From a virus: DNA of 20,974 nt. Each line of letters starts with the position of its first letter. Position 1 is the stretch's first letter. The stretch lies in IMG/VR virus record IMGVR_UViG_3300024229_000039, positions 1-20,974 of that record; one strand, given 5' to 3'. The translations under genes were made by a program, and so were the position numbers. The notes under the pieces are model-generated. The model was not told the DNA's origin and ran no database searches. It saw nothing but the letters and a program-made list of their open reading frames with translations. Shown here in pieces: positions 1 through 19,969 of the stretch.

Positions 1-18
1 AGCAAGTACACCACACAT
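1..18 (-). CDS. 5' end of a gene leaving the window; possible class II glutamine amidotransferase
   Basis: Only six codons are inside the window. The ATG at 18-16 overlaps the TAA stop (20-18) of the TET/JBP-like gene as TAATG, the same coupling used by neighbouring gene pairs. The codons read MCGVLA. Class II (Ntn-type) glutamine amidotransferase domains begin with Met followed directly by the catalytic Cys2 and a Gly, typically MCG(I/V), with the Met removed to expose the nucleophile. The match is suggestive, but six residues cannot prove a family. If correct, the enzyme would release ammonia from glutamine for amide or amine transfer. Its coupling to a DNA dioxygenase candidate would point to a base modification. 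An unrelated protein is possible. Confidence 0.4.
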
Positions 19-1412
19 TAGAAGAAGTCCTCTAGTGATCCAGCAACTTCAAATGCTTCAGGGTGGTATTGACGGACCATAGACTCACCACCTTCAACTG
101 TCAACCAATCGTACCACTCTTGTTCACCCCACATAGAAGGCGACACTCCGTTCCAATATGGTCGCCACAGTTTGTGTTCTTCGTTCTTGCGGCGAGAGTC
201 GACGTAGGCACGGCGCAGGTGCTCATATTCCCAAGTGCCCAACTTCGCCATGTCCTCTCGGAAGTAGAACACGAGGGACATACGCAGCAGATCATCCACA
301 CCAGTGTCAGGTGCTTCAATCGGGGTGTTACCGTGAATGACTCGCATGTTGTCAACGAGCAGTAGATCGCCTGGACGCACATTGATAGCAGCACGGACTT
401 CGGGACAGACAAGGTATCCACCCTTCCAGTCTTTCTTGCCGTCACTTATCACCGTCAGGTTGGAGAACCCTTCGTTCAGAGAACCAGCGTCACGGTGACA
501 CGCCATGCGAGCATTGCGGTCTTTGCTGGTGGTATTGACAGTGATGGTAGTGAAGGTTGTGTCTTCGGCGATCAGGAACTTCGGGTCAACCTTGTCAGCA
601 AACTCTTGCTGGCGTTGATGCCGGACTGGAAGTAACTCTTTAAAAGTTTGTTCCAACTTCCGTGCAAACGCATAGCACTTCTCAAATGTTTCTCGGTGAT
701 GATCAGTATATGCAGTGGCCCTACCGTAAGGAATGCGAGGATAGCGACCATAGAAACCAGCAATACCGCTCCAAATAGCAGTAGCATAAGATGTATCCGA
801 AATAAAATCCATTCTAATTTCTTTAGCATATAACGCAGCATCTTCAAGACTCATCCCTTTTATCTTTGCTTCAAGTATCGGAAAGAACTCCTTGTACGAT
901 CCGAACTCTGGTTCAACCTTAGTGCGCAACCAAACACCGCCACGAATCTCGTCGTCTACTTGTTGTGCAGCAAACTCAGCGAGAGGATCGGAACCGTCAA
1001 TGTTTGGCGGTTGTCCTTGCTCATACCAACCAAGGACATTCGATTGGTATGTAGTCACCCAGTCACGGTTGCCTTGCGAGTCCTCTCTTGGACCTGCTGC
1101 TAGACCACGGTTATTTGATTCAATAGCGGCACCGTACAAACCTTCATATGCACCCAACTGTTCTTCTTGGGTGAAGACGCCTTTGCGGAATTTGAACGCG
1201 ATACGCTCCTCGTCCAGTGGTTCTTCTTCCATACCACCAGAAGGCAAGTAGAAGTCTGCATCTGAATCGACGACCATATCATAAGAGTCTTCAGTTGCAT
1301 ACTGCCCAAGAAGTTCTGACTGGTCTTCAGTGAACAGAGCGACGTAAACGTCTTGCCCCTCATCACCCTTGAACTTCTGCCAAGGTCGACCGCCAATCGT
1401 TACATGTTCCAT
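18..1412 (-). CDS. TET/JBP-like 2OG-Fe(II) dioxygenase, candidate DNA base hydroxylase
   Basis: This 464-residue protein has a C-terminal double-stranded beta-helix with H306-x-D308 (ACHRDAG), distal H360 (VIHGN) and R377 (LRMSL), the set that binds Fe(II) and 2-oxoglutarate. The block from GFSNLTVI (315-322) through GGYLVCP (331-337) and PGDLLLVD (347-354) to RMSLVFYFRED resembles TET/JBP enzymes, which hydroxylate 5-methylcytosine or thymine in DNA. The HxD-to-His and His-to-Arg spacings (54 and 17) are close to those of JBP1. The N-terminal 280 residues are less recognisable but include RGLAAGP at 102-108. The protein ends in SLEDFF, like a T4-type sliding-clamp-binding tail. The start is ATG at 1412, after GAGGA. 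A consensus sigma70 promoter lies just upstream. The family call is by eye, the substrate (T, 5mC or other) is unknown, and a more distant Fe/2OG oxygenase remains possible. Confidence 0.72.
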   Translation of the reverse strand: MEHVTIGGRPWQKFKGDEGQDVYVALFTEDQSELLGQYATEDSYDMVVDSDADFYLPSGGMEEEPLDEERIAFKFRKGVFTQEEQLGAYEGLYGAAIESNNRGLAAGPREDSQGNRDWVTTYQSNVLGWYEQGQPPNIDGSDPLAEFAAQQVDDEIRGGVWLRTKVEPEFGSYKEFFPILEAKIKGMSLEDAALYAKEIRMDFISDTSYATAIWSGIAGFYGRYPRIPYGRATAYTDHHRETFEKCYAFARKLEQTFKELLPVRHQRQQEFADKVDPKFLIAEDTTFTTITVNTTSKDRNARMACHRDAGSLNEGFSNLTVISDGKKDWKGGYLVCPEVRAAINVRPGDLLLVDNMRVIHGNTPIEAPDTGVDDLLRMSLVFYFREDMAKLGTWEYEHLRRAYVDSRRKNEEHKLWRPYWNGVSPSMWGEQEWYDWLTVEGGESMVRQYHPEAFEVAGSLEDFF

Positions 1413-1628: not shown

Positions 1629-2161
1629 TAGTTGCCCTTGTATGAGACCGACGATCGGTGGCGGTCGTCCATGTACTCGTTTGCGCGATCTGCGTGTGGA
1701 CCATTAGCATCCACATAATGCAGAAAAACCTGATAGGTGAAGTCAGCGGGGTTCTCTTCGCGCCAATGCTGAATCAATGGACCTCGATAGATAACAGCAT
1801 CGCCTTCGTCCATTGCGAAAGAACCACCAGTCCAAAAGAACTCCCATTTTGGACCCACATTCTTGAGGTTGACAGTGACAGAAACATCACACGAAGGTCT
1901 GTCTTTGTGTGGCACGAGAACATGACCAGTCGAGTAGATGCGACTGTAATCATAAGAGGGAAGGAGGTCCAACCCAGTCAGTTCAGACATCTTGTCGCAA
2001 CAGTCTTCGAGCAAGTCCCAGTGTAGACCATACCAAGACCATGCCCCAACTGCCTGAAGATCTTCCATATCAACTTCGGGGCAATTCTTGTGCGCGTCCA
2101 TCCGATCACTGTGGTGATCACAGACAGGTTGGGCGACAAAATGTTCTACGACTTGTGTCAT
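1628..2161 (-). CDS. Small 2OG-Fe(II) oxygenase, prolyl-4-hydroxylase-like fold
   Basis: The 177-residue product has H85-x-D87 (VPHKDRP) and a distal H132 (IQHWREE), the metal triad of Fe(II)/2-oxoglutarate oxygenases, and DAVIYRGPLIQHW leads into the distal His as expected. The strand after it reads YQVFLHYV. At the usual place for a 2OG-anchoring Arg or Lys there is no clear basic residue, so co-substrate binding may be atypical. Small phage proteins of this type are common in marine T4-like genomes, with substrates mostly unknown. The start ATG overlaps the gp46 stop as ATGA, placing it in the gp47-glutaredoxin-gp46 operon. Whether it acts on protein, nucleotide or DNA cannot be told from sequence. 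Confidence 0.8.
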   Translation of the reverse strand: MTQVVEHFVAQPVCDHHSDRMDAHKNCPEVDMEDLQAVGAWSWYGLHWDLLEDCCDKMSELTGLDLLPSYDYSRIYSTGHVLVPHKDRPSCDVSVTVNLKNVGPKWEFFWTGGSFAMDEGDAVIYRGPLIQHWREENPADFTYQVFLHYVDANGPHADRANEYMDDRHRSSVSYKGN

Positions 2162-3873
2162 TTTATAGTAGAGAAGTTCTTCTTCTTGACGAACTCGATC
2201 TTGGACTCGAACTTACCATCCAGCATCTCGCCTTTGTGAGAGATAATGAACACGTTTGTGTCGTCGCCGAGGGTGTGGATAATCTTCATCAGGTTATCAA
2301 TCCCTGCTTCGTCCAGAGAAGAGTCGAAAGTCTCGTCTAGGATCAACAGGTTGGTGCTGATAGAGTTCTTCATCTTGGCAACTTGTCTCCAAGAGAACAG
2401 AAGCGCCAAGTCAATGCGCTGCTTCTCGCCTTCAGAGAAAGAGTCATACGAGAACGAGTCACGGTGACGCGAACGGATAGTCTCTTCGAACTTCTCATCA
2501 AGATCAAAGTGCACGTAGAAGTCAAGGATAGACAGGTACTGATTGACCATCTTATTGATGACAGGCAGGTACTGCTTGATCACCTTGGTCTTGATACCAG
2601 TATCCTTCAACATCTCAGAGACAACAGAGTTGTACGCGGATTGGTCTGTCATACTGTTACGACTATCGATCAGTGCGTGATATTCCTTGGTCAGTACATC
2701 GAACTCATCGTTCGCCTTGGACAAGTCAGAATGAGAGTCAGAGAGATTCTCTATCTCTGTTCTCGCCTTATCAGCATTGGAGTTGTGGGTTTGTATGGTC
2801 TGTATATTGACTTGAACTTTTTGTAGATTCTCTTGAACAACCAGTTGTCTTTGGTTCAATTCTTCGAGAGTTTCTGTGACTTTGACTCGTTCAGATTGCA
2901 CCTTAACACCACCAGATTGTAACTCTGATGCCTTCTTCCTTGCTTCGGCGAGTTTACTTTCCTTGAGTTCTTCGCCGATGTCTTGGTCGCACGTCGGGCA
3001 GTGGTCGTTGTTCTCATAGAACTTTGTGTCCTTCACAAGAGTTTTTATTTTGGTTTTGAATTCAGATTCATACGAGGTCAACTGTGCGAGCATCTCGTTT
3101 GCCTCTTTGAACTTCGGGGTAATCTCTTCACTGATCTCCGACGCCAGAGTCTGACATTCAGCGTTCTCTTTCACGAGTCTCTCGACTTCACGCATTGCCT
3201 CTTCGATGTTCTCCTCTTTCTGTTTCTTGGCAACGGAGTTCATGTTAGACATATCGCGGATGTACTTCTTCTGCGCCTCAGTCTTTGTCTCATTGATTTC
3301 AATTGAGTGGTATATCTGGTTGATCTTCTCTCGTAGAACAGAGTTGCGTTCTTTGAGGATAGTGTTCATCTTGGAGAACACACCGATATCCAGTAGGTCT
3401 TCGATCACGTCCCTTCGGTTCACAGCAGACAATTGCATGAACGGGATGAAGGAAGAAGAACCGAGTACAACCACTTGGTGGAATGTCTTGTGATTCAACT
3501 TCAGTATGTTTTGCTCGAGGACTTTCTGGTACTCTTTGTTATGTGAGTTCTGGTTGATCATATTACCGTCAACATAGATCTCGAACTTAACAGGTTTCAG
3601 TCCACGAACAACTTTGTATGATTTGGCACCAATATCGAACTCAACTTCTACCCGCATGCCTTTGTTGTTAATGGAGTTGATTAACTGCGCCTTTTTGATA
3701 TTACGGTGAGACCTACCAAACAACCCATAGGAGATGGCGTCAAGCATAGTGGACTTACCAGCACCATTCTGCCCAACAATCAGCGTATGGTTACATTTAT
3801 TCAATGCAATCTCTGTCCAATTGTCTCCAGTGGAGAGAAAGTTCTTATATCGAATTATATTAAACTTAATCAC
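2158..3873 (-). CDS. 46: gp46, SbcC/Rad50-like ATPase subunit of the recombination nuclease
   Basis: The 571-residue protein is a Rad50/SbcC-type ATPase that works with gp47 to degrade and resect DNA ends for recombination-dependent replication and host DNA breakdown. The Walker A motif is GQNGAGKST at 34-42. A long charged coiled-coil region flanks a zinc hook, CPTC at 292-295. The ABC signature FSEGEKQ begins at 479, Walker B with its glutamate (LLILDE) is at 509-514, and the H-loop His is in ISHKG (546). Length is close to T4 gp46 (about 560). The start ATG overlaps the glutaredoxin stop as ATGA, and the end overlaps the next oxygenase gene the same way. All catalytic motifs are intact. 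Confidence 0.96.
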   Translation of the reverse strand: MIKFNIIRYKNFLSTGDNWTEIALNKCNHTLIVGQNGAGKSTMLDAISYGLFGRSHRNIKKAQLINSINNKGMRVEVEFDIGAKSYKVVRGLKPVKFEIYVDGNMINQNSHNKEYQKVLEQNILKLNHKTFHQVVVLGSSSFIPFMQLSAVNRRDVIEDLLDIGVFSKMNTILKERNSVLREKINQIYHSIEINETKTEAQKKYIRDMSNMNSVAKKQKEENIEEAMREVERLVKENAECQTLASEISEEITPKFKEANEMLAQLTSYESEFKTKIKTLVKDTKFYENNDHCPTCDQDIGEELKESKLAEARKKASELQSGGVKVQSERVKVTETLEELNQRQLVVQENLQKVQVNIQTIQTHNSNADKARTEIENLSDSHSDLSKANDEFDVLTKEYHALIDSRNSMTDQSAYNSVVSEMLKDTGIKTKVIKQYLPVINKMVNQYLSILDFYVHFDLDEKFEETIRSRHRDSFSYDSFSEGEKQRIDLALLFSWRQVAKMKNSISTNLLILDETFDSSLDEAGIDNLMKIIHTLGDDTNVFIISHKGEMLDGKFESKIEFVKKKNFSTIK

Positions 3874-5164: not shown

Positions 5165-5752
5165 CTATTCCTCAAAGAATCCAGAAAGGTCAGAGTCTGC
5201 GCGCACAGTGCGCTTGTTACCGAGTTTCTTTTTATATTCTTTGATTTTAGTATCTTTGTCTTTGACATCATCAATACGACGACGGAGGTTATCTACAAAG
5301 GACTGTACTGCCTTTGCAACTTGCGGGTCTTCATTGGGGTCAACCATGAACTCTTCAAGACCAGACTCAGCGAGGAACTTCAACTTCACGTCCTGCTGCT
5401 TCTTCTCTTTCTGGATACGTCGGAGAAACGCATACCAAGAGATCTGAGTGAAGTACCCGAAAGCATTTGGTTTACCTTTACGAGTTGCTGCGTCGATGTC
5501 ATAGTTTTGAACTGCTCGGAGGCAGTTCTCAACGGCATCCATCACCATCTCTTCACGGTATGTGTACCGCACGAAGTTAGACTTGTGAGACAACCCTTCG
5601 GCAATCTTCAAGAAACACTCGGCGACATATCGCGGCATCATAGGGGCAGGTTTATCATCTGCCTTAGCATCCCGCACGGTCTGGACATAGTCCACAACTG
5701 CTTGAGAGAACTCAGCGTTGTTGACATAATGTGGTCGTTCACTTGGTTTCAT
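5165..5752 (-). CDS. 55: gp55, phage late-transcription sigma factor
   Basis: This 195-residue divergent sigma factor directs host RNA polymerase to TATAAATA late promoters. The centre carries a region-2-like block, with TYREEMVMDAVENC, then GYFTQISWYAFLRR followed by basic residues, typical of gp55. The C-terminus SDLSGFFEE is a hydrophobic and acidic tail like the one that ties T4 gp55 to the sliding clamp gp45, coupling late transcription to replication. The ATG at 5752 is preceded by CGAGGA. A sigma70-like promoter lies 25 to 55 nt upstream, so gp55 can be made by unmodified host holoenzyme. Its targets are visible in this window, ahead of gp18 and the 66-residue core gene. Confidence 0.93.
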   Translation of the reverse strand: MKPSERPHYVNNAEFSQAVVDYVQTVRDAKADDKPAPMMPRYVAECFLKIAEGLSHKSNFVRYTYREEMVMDAVENCLRAVQNYDIDAATRKGKPNAFGYFTQISWYAFLRRIQKEKKQQDVKLKFLAESGLEEFMVDPNEDPQVAKAVQSFVDNLRRRIDDVKDKDTKIKEYKKKLGNKRTVRADSDLSGFFEE

Positions 5753-11172: not shown

Positions 11173-11838
11173 TTAAAGGGTTTCTTTAAGATTAGAGAGG
11201 AAAGATTTGAACTCACGAGTCTGCTCGGCATACGAGTATACCTTTGCAGAAGGAGTAACGATTTCAGTCTCTTGTTCTTCACATATTTCCTGAGCGACCA
11301 GAACTCCTTTGCTCCAGACCCAGTCTACACCTTCCATAATACCATTAACGAAAGCATTCGGTGCAGATGGATCTTGTACGATATCAACCGTACTTAAAAC
11401 AAAGTCGTCTCCGACATACGAGGACCCGCCTCGTTGCTCAAGACTACCCATACCACGAGTTGAGACACCAAGGTTGACACCGCCTTCAAGCAAACCTTTT
11501 ACGATTTTACCCATAGGAGTATCAAGGATTGATGCCTTTCCGATCACATCATTGCCTTCGAAACGAAGATCAGTGATGAGATGCGAAACTTTGTCGAGGT
11601 TGACTGTTGGACCTTCAGGGTGGTTCAACTCGCCAACCGCTCGATTCTTAGATACCTGCTCTTCAACATACTTATTAACCGCTCTCTCCATAGTTTTCTT
11701 TGGATAGATACGACCATTCCGGTTCTTTTGCTCTGCTTGAGCAAACACACCTTCAATCACATAAGACTTTTCACCTTGCTCATTTTTCTCAACGATACAC
11801 TGTACGTTCTGTTCGTTGAATTCAGCAATCAGTTTCAT
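11173..11838 (-). CDS. 21: gp21, prohead core protein and maturation protease
   Basis: This 221-residue serine protease matures the prohead by cutting gp22, core proteins and gp23. It has the herpesvirus-protease-like triad region of the family: H73 in GELNHPEG, a nucleophile region GVSTRGMGS with probable S126 (S132 is the alternative), and an acidic VDIVQDPSAPNAF motif at 151-163. The N-terminus holds the NRNGRIYP motif (39-46) typical of the family. Length is near T4 gp21 (212). The ATG overlaps the stop of the 66-residue gene as ATGA. The C-terminal tail after about residue 180 may be an autocleaved segment, which is inference. Confidence 0.95.
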   Translation of the reverse strand: MKLIAEFNEQNVQCIVEKNEQGEKSYVIEGVFAQAEQKNRNGRIYPKKTMERAVNKYVEEQVSKNRAVGELNHPEGPTVNLDKVSHLITDLRFEGNDVIGKASILDTPMGKIVKGLLEGGVNLGVSTRGMGSLEQRGGSSYVGDDFVLSTVDIVQDPSAPNAFVNGIMEGVDWVWSKGVLVAQEICEEQETEIVTPSAKVYSYAEQTREFKSFLSNLKETL

Positions 11839-12035
11839 GTCAGTTCCTTGATAGCAGTCTCGATTGATTTAATAGCATCCTTTTCAGAACGGAAGGTGTC
11901 GAGAAGGTCACCGTCAATATACGCAGTAAACCCTTTAGGGGTCTTGTAGACCTGTGTGCCGATTCGCTTGTACTTCTTGCTGTGCACAAGGTTGCCGGCA
12001 GGTTTCTTATTACGTATTTCTGAAAAGGTTTTCAT
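11835..12035 (-). CDS. 66-residue protein in the gp68 position, possible prohead core protein
   Basis: This small basic protein begins MKTFSEIRNKKPAGN and continues with VYKTPKGFTAYIDGDLLDTF, then a helical C-terminus. It lies between the gp67-like gene and gp21 and is coupled to gp21 by an ATGA overlap, so a role in prohead core assembly is likely. T4 has gp68 (141 residues) in this slot; this protein is half that size and I see no firm sequence match, so the gp68 name is by position only. It has no Shine-Dalgarno before ATG 12035. Instead a TATAAATA late box ends just 6 nt upstream, so a transcript from it would be nearly leaderless. Confidence 0.8.
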   Translation of the reverse strand: MKTFSEIRNKKPAGNLVHSKKYKRIGTQVYKTPKGFTAYIDGDLLDTFRSEKDAIKSIETAIKELT

Positions 12036-12041
12036 AACTAT

Positions 12042-12049
12042 TATTTATA
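12042..12049 (-). promoter_or_regulatory. T4-type late promoter box before the gp68-position gene and gp21
   Basis: The minus strand has a perfect TATAAATA at 12049-12042, the sequence recognised by gp55. A second, one-mismatch AATAAATA lies just upstream at 12060-12053. Initiation would fall close to the ATG at 12035. The position suits late expression of the gp21-gp22-gp23 block. Confidence 0.65.
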
Positions 12050-12055
12050 CCTTAT

Positions 12056-12514
12056 TTATTCTTCAGATGAAAGAATTTCTTCTACGTCTGCTTCTGCTTC
12101 TTCGTCGCCGTATAACCCGAGAGTATCTTCTACTTCTTCGTGTTCTTCGTCTGACCCGAGGTCAATCTCAGCGACAGGTTCTTCAACCTCTACTTCAGCA
12201 ACAGGTTCTTCAACTTCTGTTTCATTGTCCAAGTCACTTATCAATGCGTCCATTGAGAAATCATCGACTTCTGCTTCAAGTTCAGCAGCGGCGTCTTCTA
12301 GATCCTTTTCGCTAACCTCTAGATCAGTTTCGCCGTTAAAGACTTGACCAGCAACTCGAACTTTCTCTGCTTCAAGGGCATCATACACCTTTGCTGACAT
12401 AAGGTCGGCAAACATCTTCTGCGAGTCCAAAGCGTTGCCACCAGCAATGGCGTCCAGCATGTCTTCAATAGAAGGGGTAATTACTTCAACATCTACAGTT
12501 TCATTATCACTCAT
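12056..12514 (-). CDS. 67: gp67-like prohead core protein
   Basis: This 152-residue, highly acidic protein matches the N-terminal pattern of T4 gp67: DMLDAIAGGNALDSQKMFAD followed by LMSAKVYDALEAEK, against LIEAIKSNDLVAARKLFAEAMAARTIDLIKEEK, and then a long Glu/Asp-rich tail. T4 gp67 is a small internal prohead component needed for correct head shape and is cleaved by gp21. It sits in the expected order between gp20 and gp21. Two ATGs are adjacent; I prefer 12514 because it is 6 nt from AGGAG, whereas 12517 is only 3 nt away. The tail holds a tandem nonapeptide repeat. It is longer than T4 gp67 (80). Confidence 0.85.
   Translation of the reverse strand: MSDNETVDVEVITPSIEDMLDAIAGGNALDSQKMFADLMSAKVYDALEAEKVRVAGQVFNGETDLEVSEKDLEDAAAELEAEVDDFSMDALISDLDNETEVEEPVAEVEVEEPVAEIDLGSDEEHEEVEDTLGLYGDEEAEADVEEILSSEE
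12171..12224 (-). repeat. Two tandem 27 bp units inside the gp67-like gene
   Basis: Positions 12171-12197 and 12198-12224 are near-identical in-frame copies that encode (E)TEVEEPVA and EVEVEEPVA. They extend the acidic tail, a typical sign of recent slippage or duplication in a low-complexity region. Confidence 0.8.
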
Positions 12515-18210: not shown

Positions 18211-18553
18211 GATTAGAACTCACTTCCTTCTCATTAATATCTTTCAACATTCTCTGCAATTCAGTAGTAGAACCAACGAAAACATTGTTAGTTGTATTAC
18301 CATGAGGAAGTGCAGCAGTTGTTGGAGCGTCTACTTTGTCCAAGTCTTTTTTCTGCTTTTGAAGAGTTAGCAGTTGATTGGATACGTCTGCTGTATCCTT
18401 AATCAGTTTGGCAAGAACCTCGTATGCCCTTGGGTGTTCTGATGCCTTTGCAACCTCGAACATTTCCTCTACACCGTCACGACCTTTACAGATCATATCG
18501 TATAGAGTTTCTCGGGCGAAGTCGAAATCGTTGTCTTTATCAGAGTCACTCAT
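18176..18553 (-). CDS. 16: gp16, terminase small subunit
   Basis: This 125-residue protein (T4: 164) recognises DNA and regulates gp17 during packaging. It has an N-terminal helical segment (FARETLYDMICKGRDGVEEM), a central coiled-coil-like pair (EHPRAYEVLAKLIKDTADVS followed by NQLLTLQKQKKDLDKV), and a polar Thr/Asn-rich linker with a C-terminal helix (STTELQRMLKDIN). This matches the T4 layout. The ATG overlaps the stop of the upstream oxygenase-like gene as ATGA, and its 3' end overlaps gp17. Confidence 0.93.
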   Translation of the reverse strand: MSDSDKDNDFDFARETLYDMICKGRDGVEEMFEVAKASEHPRAYEVLAKLIKDTADVSNQLLTLQKQKKDLDKVDAPTTAALPHGNTTNNVFVGSTTELQRMLKDINEKEVSSNHDAIDHRHDEE

Positions 18554-19185
18554 GCCATCAACTTTCCTTGTTCATACAGAGTATGTATAGTTGCTTCACC
18601 ACAGGTAAATGCAATAGCAGCACTTGCCCTGTAGTTGTTATTGTTCTCGTATCCGTGAACTTTCTGCGAATCAGCGACATAACAGGGAGACCACTCTACC
18701 TCGGCAACCTTTGTGTGCCCCGCTTCGTTATAGTATGTCAGAGGTGCCCATTCTTCAGCATCATATGGGGTCAGGGGTAGGAACATTACTGCCTTTCGGT
18801 ATTCCCTGAAATGCTCCCAATCTTTATGCGGTGACATGAAACCATAAGGTTGAGATCCCTGCAATATAATGTACGCTATGTACTGTTGCGCTTCAGGGTG
18901 GATCATATCCCAAAGTATCTTCAACTCAGGGGTGTTCCAGTTCGGAACGTATGACGTACCTTCCACCGCAGGGCAGGAGTCTATCTTGTTGATTGTATAC
19001 ATCACATCTCTTACCGACCTTGATATGTCGAAACGGTAAATGATCTCAGGGTTTGCTGCTTGCGATGAATGAAACAGAGAAGTCTTCGCTTTAGATTGCT
19101 CTATAAGGGTTTCCCTCAACTCTTCTGGTAATGTAACTCCCTCAACATGGAAGAAATAATCTGGTTTACGTGGTTGTGTAGTCAT
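18550..19185 (-). CDS. 2OG-Fe(II) oxygenase-like protein inside the structural operon
   Basis: This 211-residue protein has H120-x-D122 (SPHKDWEH), distal H177 (KVHGYEN) and R186 (NYRASAAIAF), matching the Fe(II) triad and 2-oxoglutarate-binding Arg of the double-stranded beta-helix oxygenases. The strand YIAYIILQG precedes the HxD and VMFLPLTPYDAEEW follows it. The substrate is unknown. I chose ATG 19185, which overlaps gp15 by 20 nt; the frame is open to a TTG at 19209, which would add 8 residues. Neither has a clear Shine-Dalgarno, so coupling to gp15 is likely. It overlaps gp16 by ATGA. T4 has no gene between 15 and 16, so this is an insertion. A catalytically dead fold reused in the virion is an alternative. 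Confidence 0.75.
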   Translation of the reverse strand: MTTQPRKPDYFFHVEGVTLPEELRETLIEQSKAKTSLFHSSQAANPEIIYRFDISRSVRDVMYTINKIDSCPAVEGTSYVPNWNTPELKILWDMIHPEAQQYIAYIILQGSQPYGFMSPHKDWEHFREYRKAVMFLPLTPYDAEEWAPLTYYNEAGHTKVAEVEWSPCYVADSQKVHGYENNNNYRASAAIAFTCGEATIHTLYEQGKLMA

Positions 19186-19969
19186 GTGGCACAAATTGGT
19201 CGCTATCAAGTATATCAGTAATTATAGTGTAGTCAGAGTCTGGACTCACTGGTTGCGGGTTAGTTTCTACCCTAACCGTCTCAAGGTATTTATCCGAGTC
19301 TGCTGCGTTGACATCCATGTTATAGAGGTCCATATCGATACGATTAATAAGTTCGCCTTCCGCTGCCTTTGGACCGTAGAAAGAAACTTTCATATCAAAC
19401 GAAAGGGTGTATATGATAGTCCTTCTCGCTTCCATAGCACCCTCGAAGTCGTCAGTAAAGGTCACTGACTGAAGGATTACCGGAACGTCTTCCACAATAT
19501 CAACATCGTCGACTGGTTTAACCGACAGAGTATATTGGGGAGAGAAGTATGGGAGTATTTGCTCGACTACTTGTAGGGCATCGTCATGCTGTTTGGCATA
19601 GATGCTCATCTCAAATGTTATGATGTATGGAGTTGCTGTGTAGAACTTTTGCCCTTTACCAGATTCGGATCCAGGTTTACAAAAGGAATTCATTTTTGGT
19701 AACTGGCGCTGGGCGTCGTATTGTATGTTGACAATCTCGAAAGACATACGCGGCAACTTGATAGCGAGTTGCCTCTCGTTATCTTCTCCGTTGTTCATCT
19801 CTGCAATACGCTCAAGGAACTTGCGCTGAGGCGCATACGCCAGAGGAACTTTCATCTGGTCATAGACAGTGTCGCCATGCTTGCGTATGATGTAGAGGTT
19901 GTTAAACATCGACCCGAAGATAGCAACCGACCGACGAACCCGTTCATTGTAAAAGTGTGTACCAAACAT
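19166..19969 (-). CDS. 15: gp15, tail sheath stabiliser and tail terminator
   Basis: The 267 residues (T4: 272) form the hexameric ring at the head-proximal end of the tail that caps the tube and sheath and joins the tail to the neck. The start FGTHFYNERVRRSVAIFGSM is characteristic, as are the blocks RMSFEIVNIQYDAQRQLPKM near 74-93, the long strand FYTATPYIITFEMSIYAK near 106-123, and TIIYTLSFDMKVSFYGP near 185-201. The ATG overlaps the gp14 stop as TGATG. The 3' end is overlapped by the inserted oxygenase-like gene. Confidence 0.95.
   Translation of the reverse strand: MFGTHFYNERVRRSVAIFGSMFNNLYIIRKHGDTVYDQMKVPLAYAPQRKFLERIAEMNNGEDNERQLAIKLPRMSFEIVNIQYDAQRQLPKMNSFCKPGSESGKGQKFYTATPYIITFEMSIYAKQHDDALQVVEQILPYFSPQYTLSVKPVDDVDIVEDVPVILQSVTFTDDFEGAMEARRTIIYTLSFDMKVSFYGPKAAEGELINRIDMDLYNMDVNAADSDKYLETVRVETNPQPVSPDSDYTIITDILDSDQFVPHDYTTT

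Follow-up and report, generated by a model that had tools for sequence, protein, structure and literature searches.

A TET/JBP-family dioxygenase in a DNA-hypermodification cassette of T4-like phages, with C-terminal tails like that of the phage DNA polymerase

The TET/JBP gene and its protein

A single open reading frame on the minus strand of the window (the whole stretch of viral DNA that was analysed, 20,974 nucleotides) occupies positions 18-1412, with its ATG at 1412 and its stop codon at 20-18, and encodes a TET/JBP-family Fe(II)/2OG dioxygenase of 464 amino acids. The first-pass annotation had placed the reading frame at the same positions without giving the strand. The Pfam profile Tet_JBP (PF12851) covers residues 236-386 with 57.8 bits against a curated cut-off of 34.9 (E=1e-15), and the protein matches phrog_24024 with E=7e-139. 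No non-DNA Fe/2OG family gave a better profile match, an outcome that would have refuted the initial reading: Tet_JBP is the best curated profile, and at E<=1 Pfam adds nothing but a much weaker match to TauD, under the TauD cut-off. A J-base-binding domain was not found in that search.

The motif blocks named at the outset are all present: CHRDAG, KGGYLVCPEVR, PGDLLLVDN, IHGNTPI and RMSLVFYFRE. They include the HxD metal-binding motif H306-R-D308 (489-497, minus strand), the second metal histidine H360 (333-335, minus strand) and R377 (282-284, minus strand), to which the role of 2-oxoglutarate-binding arginine is assigned from the family. H306, D308, H360 and R377 are unchanged across 14 relatives, a 44-member alignment and a 7-member alignment. 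The last reaches down to 23-24% identity and retains only 18 invariant columns, among them these four and N293 (in TVN, 534-536, minus strand), which is invariant as far as the homologues in the phages JAMaL and Melnitz. That N293 recognises the base is only a guess.

An AlphaFold2 model of the protein (mean pLDDT 81, pTM 0.73) was compared with solved structures by Foldseek, and the 26 best PDB matches were all TET2, CcTet, NgTet1 or CMD1 (best E=4.8e-9), several of them solved with DNA. The comparison with TET2 that had been proposed as a check thus came out in favour of the family, with TET2 among the best fold matches, at modest TM-scores of about 0.43. A profile built from the 7-member alignment also retrieves human TET2 among the solved structures (E=1.6e-6). 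Searched against the PDB by sequence and on its own, the window protein had given just clavaminate-synthase-like fragments, a result superseded by the broader profile and the fold search. The assignment of 18-1412 to the TET/JBP family is confirmed; the enzyme activity is inferred, and that the N-terminal part, some 230 residues, might govern specificity is conjecture.

A cassette of modification genes beside the dioxygenase

The enzyme family had been recognised correctly from the start, but the cassette downstream of the gene and the clamp-type tail at the C-terminus of its product were overlooked. The TET stop codon overlaps the start of the next gene (TAATG), of which the window holds six codons, MCGVLA, at 1-18 on the minus strand. 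The contig L001, which is 99.9% identical to the window across 9 kb and extends beyond the window end, contains this gene in full (11395-12075) as a class-II glutamine amidotransferase (GATase_6, E=8.5e-10). The gene order in L001 is TET, glutamine amidotransferase (GATase), a GNAT acetyltransferase (Acetyltransf_1), an "amino acid:DNA transferase" (ADDT; PF18724, 85.4 bits against a cut-off of 26.2) and a P-loop kinase. The kinase belongs to the PF18751 family (66.4 bits against 27, E=3.1e-18) and does not match the kinase models HMUD2 and HMUDK_hel, which do match in the phages Vi01 and Vibrio 207E48.1. The genes after TET are taken as later steps of thymidine hypermodification, a function that is inferred. 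Among copies of the amidotransferase, the N-terminus is MC[AG] in all, and 47 of 53 end in DLQ followed by 0-5 residues.

On its other side the TET gene follows the genes for UvsY, UvsW, gp55, gp47 and gp46 and is thereby placed in the T4 core module. The gp46-type recombination nuclease subunit, a marker of this module, lies upstream at 2158-3873 on the minus strand (SMC_N/AAA_23; 53% identity to the annotated SbcC-like subunit of phage C48C1), and the gp55-type late sigma factor, which ends in DLSGFFEE, at 5165-5752 on the minus strand (phrog_234, E=2.9e-52). The window also encodes a small 2OG-oxygenase-like protein at 1628-2161, for which the top PHROG matches are labelled "ferrochelatase", a doubtful name, and at 18550-19209 a protein that by eye resembles another 2OG protein but has no family match.

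TET relatives are found in the complete T4-like phages C48C1 (72% identity), Stenotrophomonas phage DLP6 (48%) and Caulobacter phage Cr30 (39%), where they are annotated as hypothetical or as "SNF2 DNA repair protein". At least 573 relatives were confirmed in IMG/VR, far above chance. The label "SNF2 DNA repair protein" and the label "queuine tRNA-ribosyltransferase" are wrong, as the proteins match Tet_JBP; such misannotated TET/JBP proteins occur in phrog_6059 and in the JAMaL (gp2), DLP6, Cr30 and S-CBWM1 records. The P-loop kinase is likewise misannotated, as "terminase small subunit" or "adenylate kinase" (for example JAMaL gp4).

Of 20 carrier records, 16 have ADDT and 15 the kinase; those lacking them are short contigs, apart from C48C1 and DLP6, which have TET and neither of the two. 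Of the 51 loci that extend 3 kb or more to both sides of TET, 33 contain both ADDT and kinase. The genes occur in permuted orders (TET-GAT-GNAT-ADDT-KIN, GAT-GNAT-ADDT-TET-KIN, TET-GAT-amidoligase-GNAT-ADDT-KIN and others, "amidoligase" standing for a sub-threshold PF12224 match), and because the order is shuffled the linkage between TET and the cassette looks functional and not a matter of inherited synteny alone. In one contig (L013:12040-14796) the cassette has two insertions, the amidoligase-like protein and an unassigned 430-aa protein that by eye resembles ParB.

A different content is found at the 18 loci that lack the ADDT and kinase pair. A glycosyltransferase, mostly the "TET-associated glycosyltransferase" (TAGT), is near TET in 14 of them, and three have an unassigned protein and a UDP-galactopyranose mutase. 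The latter module is seen in C48C1 (L022:20001-23448; also L073 and L125), where the genes after TET are those for an unassigned 344-aa protein and the mutase, and possibly serves galactofuranosyl decoration. Carbamoyl decoration by the carbamoyltransferase of C48C1 was considered and not adopted, since the phage enzyme that has been characterised uses the 5hmdC nucleotide and not the 5hmdU one (PMC8670742). The ADDT and kinase module and the glycosyltransferase module are mutually exclusive (Fisher p=3e-8, which is optimistic because the loci are related to one another), and only Cr30 has both.

Fe/2OG enzymes are versatile, and with a further small 2OG-type protein in the window, and maybe a second, it could be argued that the dioxygenase targets RNA, a nucleotide or a protein and that the cassette is an incidental neighbour. 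This is very improbable given that the top fold matches are TET-family DNA enzymes, that the linkage to ADDT and kinase is kept across many gene orders and down to 39% identity (Cr30), and that the ADDT and kinase module and the glycosyltransferases exclude each other. A DNA-base dioxygenase, as the first-pass annotation proposed, agrees with the top curated profile, the top folds and a context that is a DNA-hypermodification cassette.

Similar clusters are known from phages of Actinobacteria, which differ in this from the T4-like ocean phage of the window. In mycobacteriophage JAMaL, gp1-gp4 are ParB, Tet_JBP, ADDT and Ploopntkinase3, and like the lineage of the window this phage combines TET, ADDT and kinase with no PF00303 protein (see below) and no C5-methyltransferase. 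The JAMaL TET, however, is only 23% identical to that of the window and falls below the Pfam cut-off, and GATase, GNAT and amidoligase were not seen in its cluster. Clusters of ParB, TET/JBP, pyrophosphorylase and kinase in Gordonia phage CaiB and Rhodococcus phage Tonitrus have been reported as predictions (PMC9302106, PMC11955845). The idea of a TET-started pathway therefore has precedent in itself. Iyer et al. 2013 reportedly also predicted hypermodification that begins with TET.

The base that is oxidised

Thymine and 5-methylcytosine had both been left open as the substrate. No C5-cytosine methyltransferase was found by PF00145 search in any of 14 carrier records, including the three complete phages and a 154-kb contig, nor was one found near TET in 51 full-flank loci. 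The same search does find the C5-methyltransferase beside TET in the T4-like phage Melnitz, which served as a positive control. The "DNA methyltransferase" of C48C1 was excluded as a source of 5-methylcytosine (5mC), as it belongs to the D12 class of adenine methyltransferases (PF02086). The absence of a C5-methyltransferase, together with the presence of ADDT and kinase, narrows the choice to thymine, which is the most likely substrate; this remains an inference without activity or base-composition data.

The PF00303 family (thymidylate synthase and dUMP/dCMP hydroxymethylases) is absent in 13 of the 14 carrier records, the exception being Cr30. It had been suggested that oxidation after incorporation would set this phage apart from T4, in which hydroxymethyl-dCMP is made before incorporation. 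The gene content supports this, with no dCMP/dUMP hydroxymethylase homologue save the thymidylate synthase family member of Cr30. Conversely, other phages that use ADDT, namely Vi01, Cygsa01 and two Vibrio phages, lack TET and encode a PF00303 homologue, and JAMaL, with its ParB-TET-ADDT-kinase row, lacks PF00303. The 5-hydroxymethyl group thus appears to come either from a nucleotide enzyme or from TET, each replacing the other.

In the phages ViI, phiW-14 and M6 a 5-hmdU DNA kinase is followed by enzymes of the amino-acid:DNA transferase type, and these kinase and transferase steps have been described (PMC6449724). The lineage of the window resembles them in its ADDT and in having a kinase, here one of the PF18751 family. 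They differ in that their 5hmdU arises at the nucleotide level and is then incorporated (PMC6449724), with a thymidylate-synthase homologue. Oxidation by TET in DNA would take the place of the dUMP-hydroxymethylase route that ViI and phiW-14 follow. Amino acids placed on 5hmdU are reportedly altered further by enzymes that include acetyltransferases (Lee et al. 2022). The kinetoplastid enzymes JBP1 and JBP2 oxidise thymine in DNA, as is predicted here, and the sister phages with TET and a glycosyltransferase would arrive at a base-J-like product. The window protein differs from them in having no J-binding domain recognised by Pfam.

An alternative is that TET oxidises 5mC, supplied by the host or by an unrecognised phage methyltransferase, to 5hmC, which the cassette then decorates. 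Phage TET homologues have been stated to oxidise 5mdC to 5hmdC (PMC11404850), Melnitz shows that a T4-like phage can have a C5-methyltransferase adjoining TET, and a host methyltransferase could supply the 5mC. This reading is unlikely in view of the empty PF00145 searches (0 of 14 carrier records and 0 of 51 loci near TET, with a positive result in Melnitz) and of the partners ADDT and kinase, whose relatives work in 5hmdU pathways (PMC6449724).

Phages with TET and a C5-methyltransferase, such as Melnitz, also have TET/JBP in a modification cluster, but there the 5mC comes from a phage methyltransferase that is missing in the lineage of the window. Burke et al. 2021 reportedly describe such a pairing of phage TETs with C5-methyltransferases. 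In Melnitz (L053:4010-8090) a C5-methyltransferase, TET, an unassigned 427-aa protein and a weak PF18751 kinase stand in one row, an arrangement that, as a side reading, would amount to the same pathway acting on cytosine within a T4-like phage.

C-terminal tails shared with the DNA polymerase

The TET protein ends in GSLEDFF. The tail SLEDFF (21-38, minus strand) is interpreted as a polymerase-type sliding-clamp-binding motif on the basis of the tail pattern and of the polymerase ends; clamp binding is inferred. Among DNA polymerases from the same group of phages the C-terminus reads SLEDFFQ or SLEDFFG, and similar ends are found in ADDT (TGLEEFFV), GNAT (YSLDAFL) and TAGT (TTLESFFS). Among non-identical tails the pattern L..F[FL]x0-2$ is present in 62 of 67 for TET, 27 of 41 for GNAT and 13 of 42 for ADDT (25 of 42 with a looser pattern). 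It is absent from the kinase (0/35), GATase (0/39) and amidoligase (0/13). The background is 46 of 867 tails in 106 families, mostly DNA polymerase, gp55 and glycosyltransferases. These counts concern related proteins and are hence not independent observations. The pattern is met by six of the 179 ORFs in the 154-kb contig, namely those for polymerase, TET, ADDT, GNAT, gp55 and a baseplate protein. A DFF end on the T4 gp26-type baseplate protein (PF12322) is seen in four phages (L148:12025-12771, L027:102-806, L030:15695-16393 and L169:22979-23749), which may be structural or an unsuspected clamp contact. The tail pattern alone thus has false positives.

The tail is not universal among TET proteins. 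The Cr30 TET ends in GATLF and does not match, and the TAGT of Cr30 (DLSKLF) resembles the Cr30 polymerase (DLSSLFD). No clamp-type tail was found in the S-CBWM1 TET. In cultured phage DLP6 both TAGT (L024:17048-17911, AAY80_028) and TET (AAY80_030) have clamp-type tails; with no C5-methyltransferase and no PF00303, DLP6 is, as judged from its genes, a candidate for base-J-like DNA. A Dam-type adenine methyltransferase that adjoins the DNA polymerase in C48C1 (L022:3898-4782) has a clamp-type tail too, STLDAFFG.

The clamp itself is encoded nearby, as the gp45 gene lies at 18967-19680 of L001 and its product shares 50% identity with the protein annotated as the clamp in C48C1. T4 gp43, gp55 and gp33 bind the gp45 clamp via C-terminal motifs that are interchangeable (PMC2988020; see also PMC7892883 for C-terminal clamp binding in T4). 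The T4 ends (gp43 ASLDFLFG, gp55 SLDFLYEAND) are like the tail in the window in being hydrophobic and acidic at the extreme C-terminus, with an L..F[FL]-like arrangement. The difference is that here the motif is carried by DNA-modification enzymes, whereas the T4 enzymes a-gt, b-gt, gp42 and Dam were checked for it and have none. Clamp contact of one T4 modification enzyme is already known: alpha-GT co-purifies with gp45, although gp45 binding is not the main determinant of the glucosylation level (PMC13216743).

In phages with other polymerase ends the modification enzymes change accordingly. The Vi01 polymerase ends in NLLSMMGKKG, and like ends occur in three of 184 ORFs, namely the polymerase, the 5-hmdU kinase HMUD2 (SLLGLMRKA) and ADDT (NLMSLLKR). 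In Vibrio 207E48.1, where the polymerase ends in SKRLW, KRLW-type ends are found in five of 195 ORFs: polymerase, ADDT, HMUD2, HMUDK_hel and a 99-aa ORF (L159:14752-15048), which is a candidate clamp client. Phage phiW-14 was looked at as a fresh case after the prediction had been made. Its polymerase ends in KLGAFFV, the kinase-like gp036 in GLGGFFKG and the ADDT gp110 in TGLGSFFR; HMUDK_hel gp072 ends in TTLAQFAP. The protein gp036 is termed kinase-like because its record gives similarity to the YuA/M6 ORF054 protein, and Pfam gave no match on it. GLGxFF ends are also seen on an exonuclease (L169:26496-27353) and a 105-aa NrdA.1-like protein (L170:31170-31484), both candidate clamp clients. 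The hypergeometric p-values for the four genomes are 1e-4, 2e-4, 3e-6 and 9e-4, which combine by Fisher's method to 5e-13, or to 2e-10 when the discovery genome is left out. A polymerase-type tail was not found in the siphoviruses M6 and JAMaL or in the small phages HTVC112P and P12024L. ViI and phiW-14 thus resemble the lineage of the window in that modification enzymes share the tail of their own polymerase, and JAMaL differs from it.

The tail type (SLEDFF, NLLSMM, KRLW, GLGxFF) therefore varies by phage group in step with the DNA polymerase. This covariation bears on the possibility that TET and the cassette work as proposed while the common tails are conserved fold ends or bind another replication protein than the clamp. 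There are no binding data, the DFF-ended baseplate protein shows that the pattern can have another origin, and kinase and GATase lack the tail. Such an explanation is nevertheless doubtful: besides following the polymerase, one and the same tail is found on unrelated folds (dioxygenase, GNAT, transferase and two glycosyltransferase families), such an end in polymerase and gp55 is known to bind gp45 (PMC2988020), and phages M6 and JAMaL are without it. Tethering to the clamp is thus preferred.

On the proposed mechanism, in which chemistry and order of steps are inferred, TET on the clamp would oxidise the methyl group of thymine after incorporation, in new DNA, to 5-hydroxymethyluracil. The P-loop kinase would phosphorylate and so activate the hydroxymethyl group, and ADDT, also on the clamp, would swap the phosphate for an amino acid of unknown identity. 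GNAT might then acylate the added amino acid, and GATase, with the amidoligase-like protein in some relatives, might act on the carboxylate. In sister lineages a clamp-borne TET-associated glycosyltransferase is predicted to put a sugar on 5hmU, giving a phage counterpart of base J. TET, ADDT, GNAT and the glycosyltransferases would be kept on new DNA by a C-terminal copy of the clamp-binding tail of the polymerase. Modification would then follow the fork, and the replisome could use ordinary dTTP since hydroxymethyluracil is formed within the DNA. That TET oxidises thymine in DNA and starts a hypermodification by enzymes held on the clamp through polymerase-like tails is considered probable, by about two chances to one.

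Clamp tethering of modification enzymes appears to be previously undescribed; modification enzymes of several pathways sharing the clamp tail of the polymerase were not found in the literature searched, in which subscription journals are thinly covered. It is rather probable, though held with somewhat more reserve, that a general rule applies to phages with a T4-like clamp, in which many DNA-modifying enzymes carry the clamp tail of their own polymerase and form a toolbelt behind the fork, with TET making hydroxymethyluracil in DNA in the present case.

If this is true, it would account for the way phages direct modification at their own DNA and not that of the host, and do so fast enough, because the enzymes ride on the phage's own clamp. 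A polymerase-like protein end would become a handle for spotting unknown modification enzymes, and the solitary TAGT glycosyltransferases left unassigned earlier (PMC13216743) would be open to rereading. Thymine-oxidising, base-J-like or aminoacylated-thymine chemistry is predicted in the cultured phages Cr30 and DLP6.
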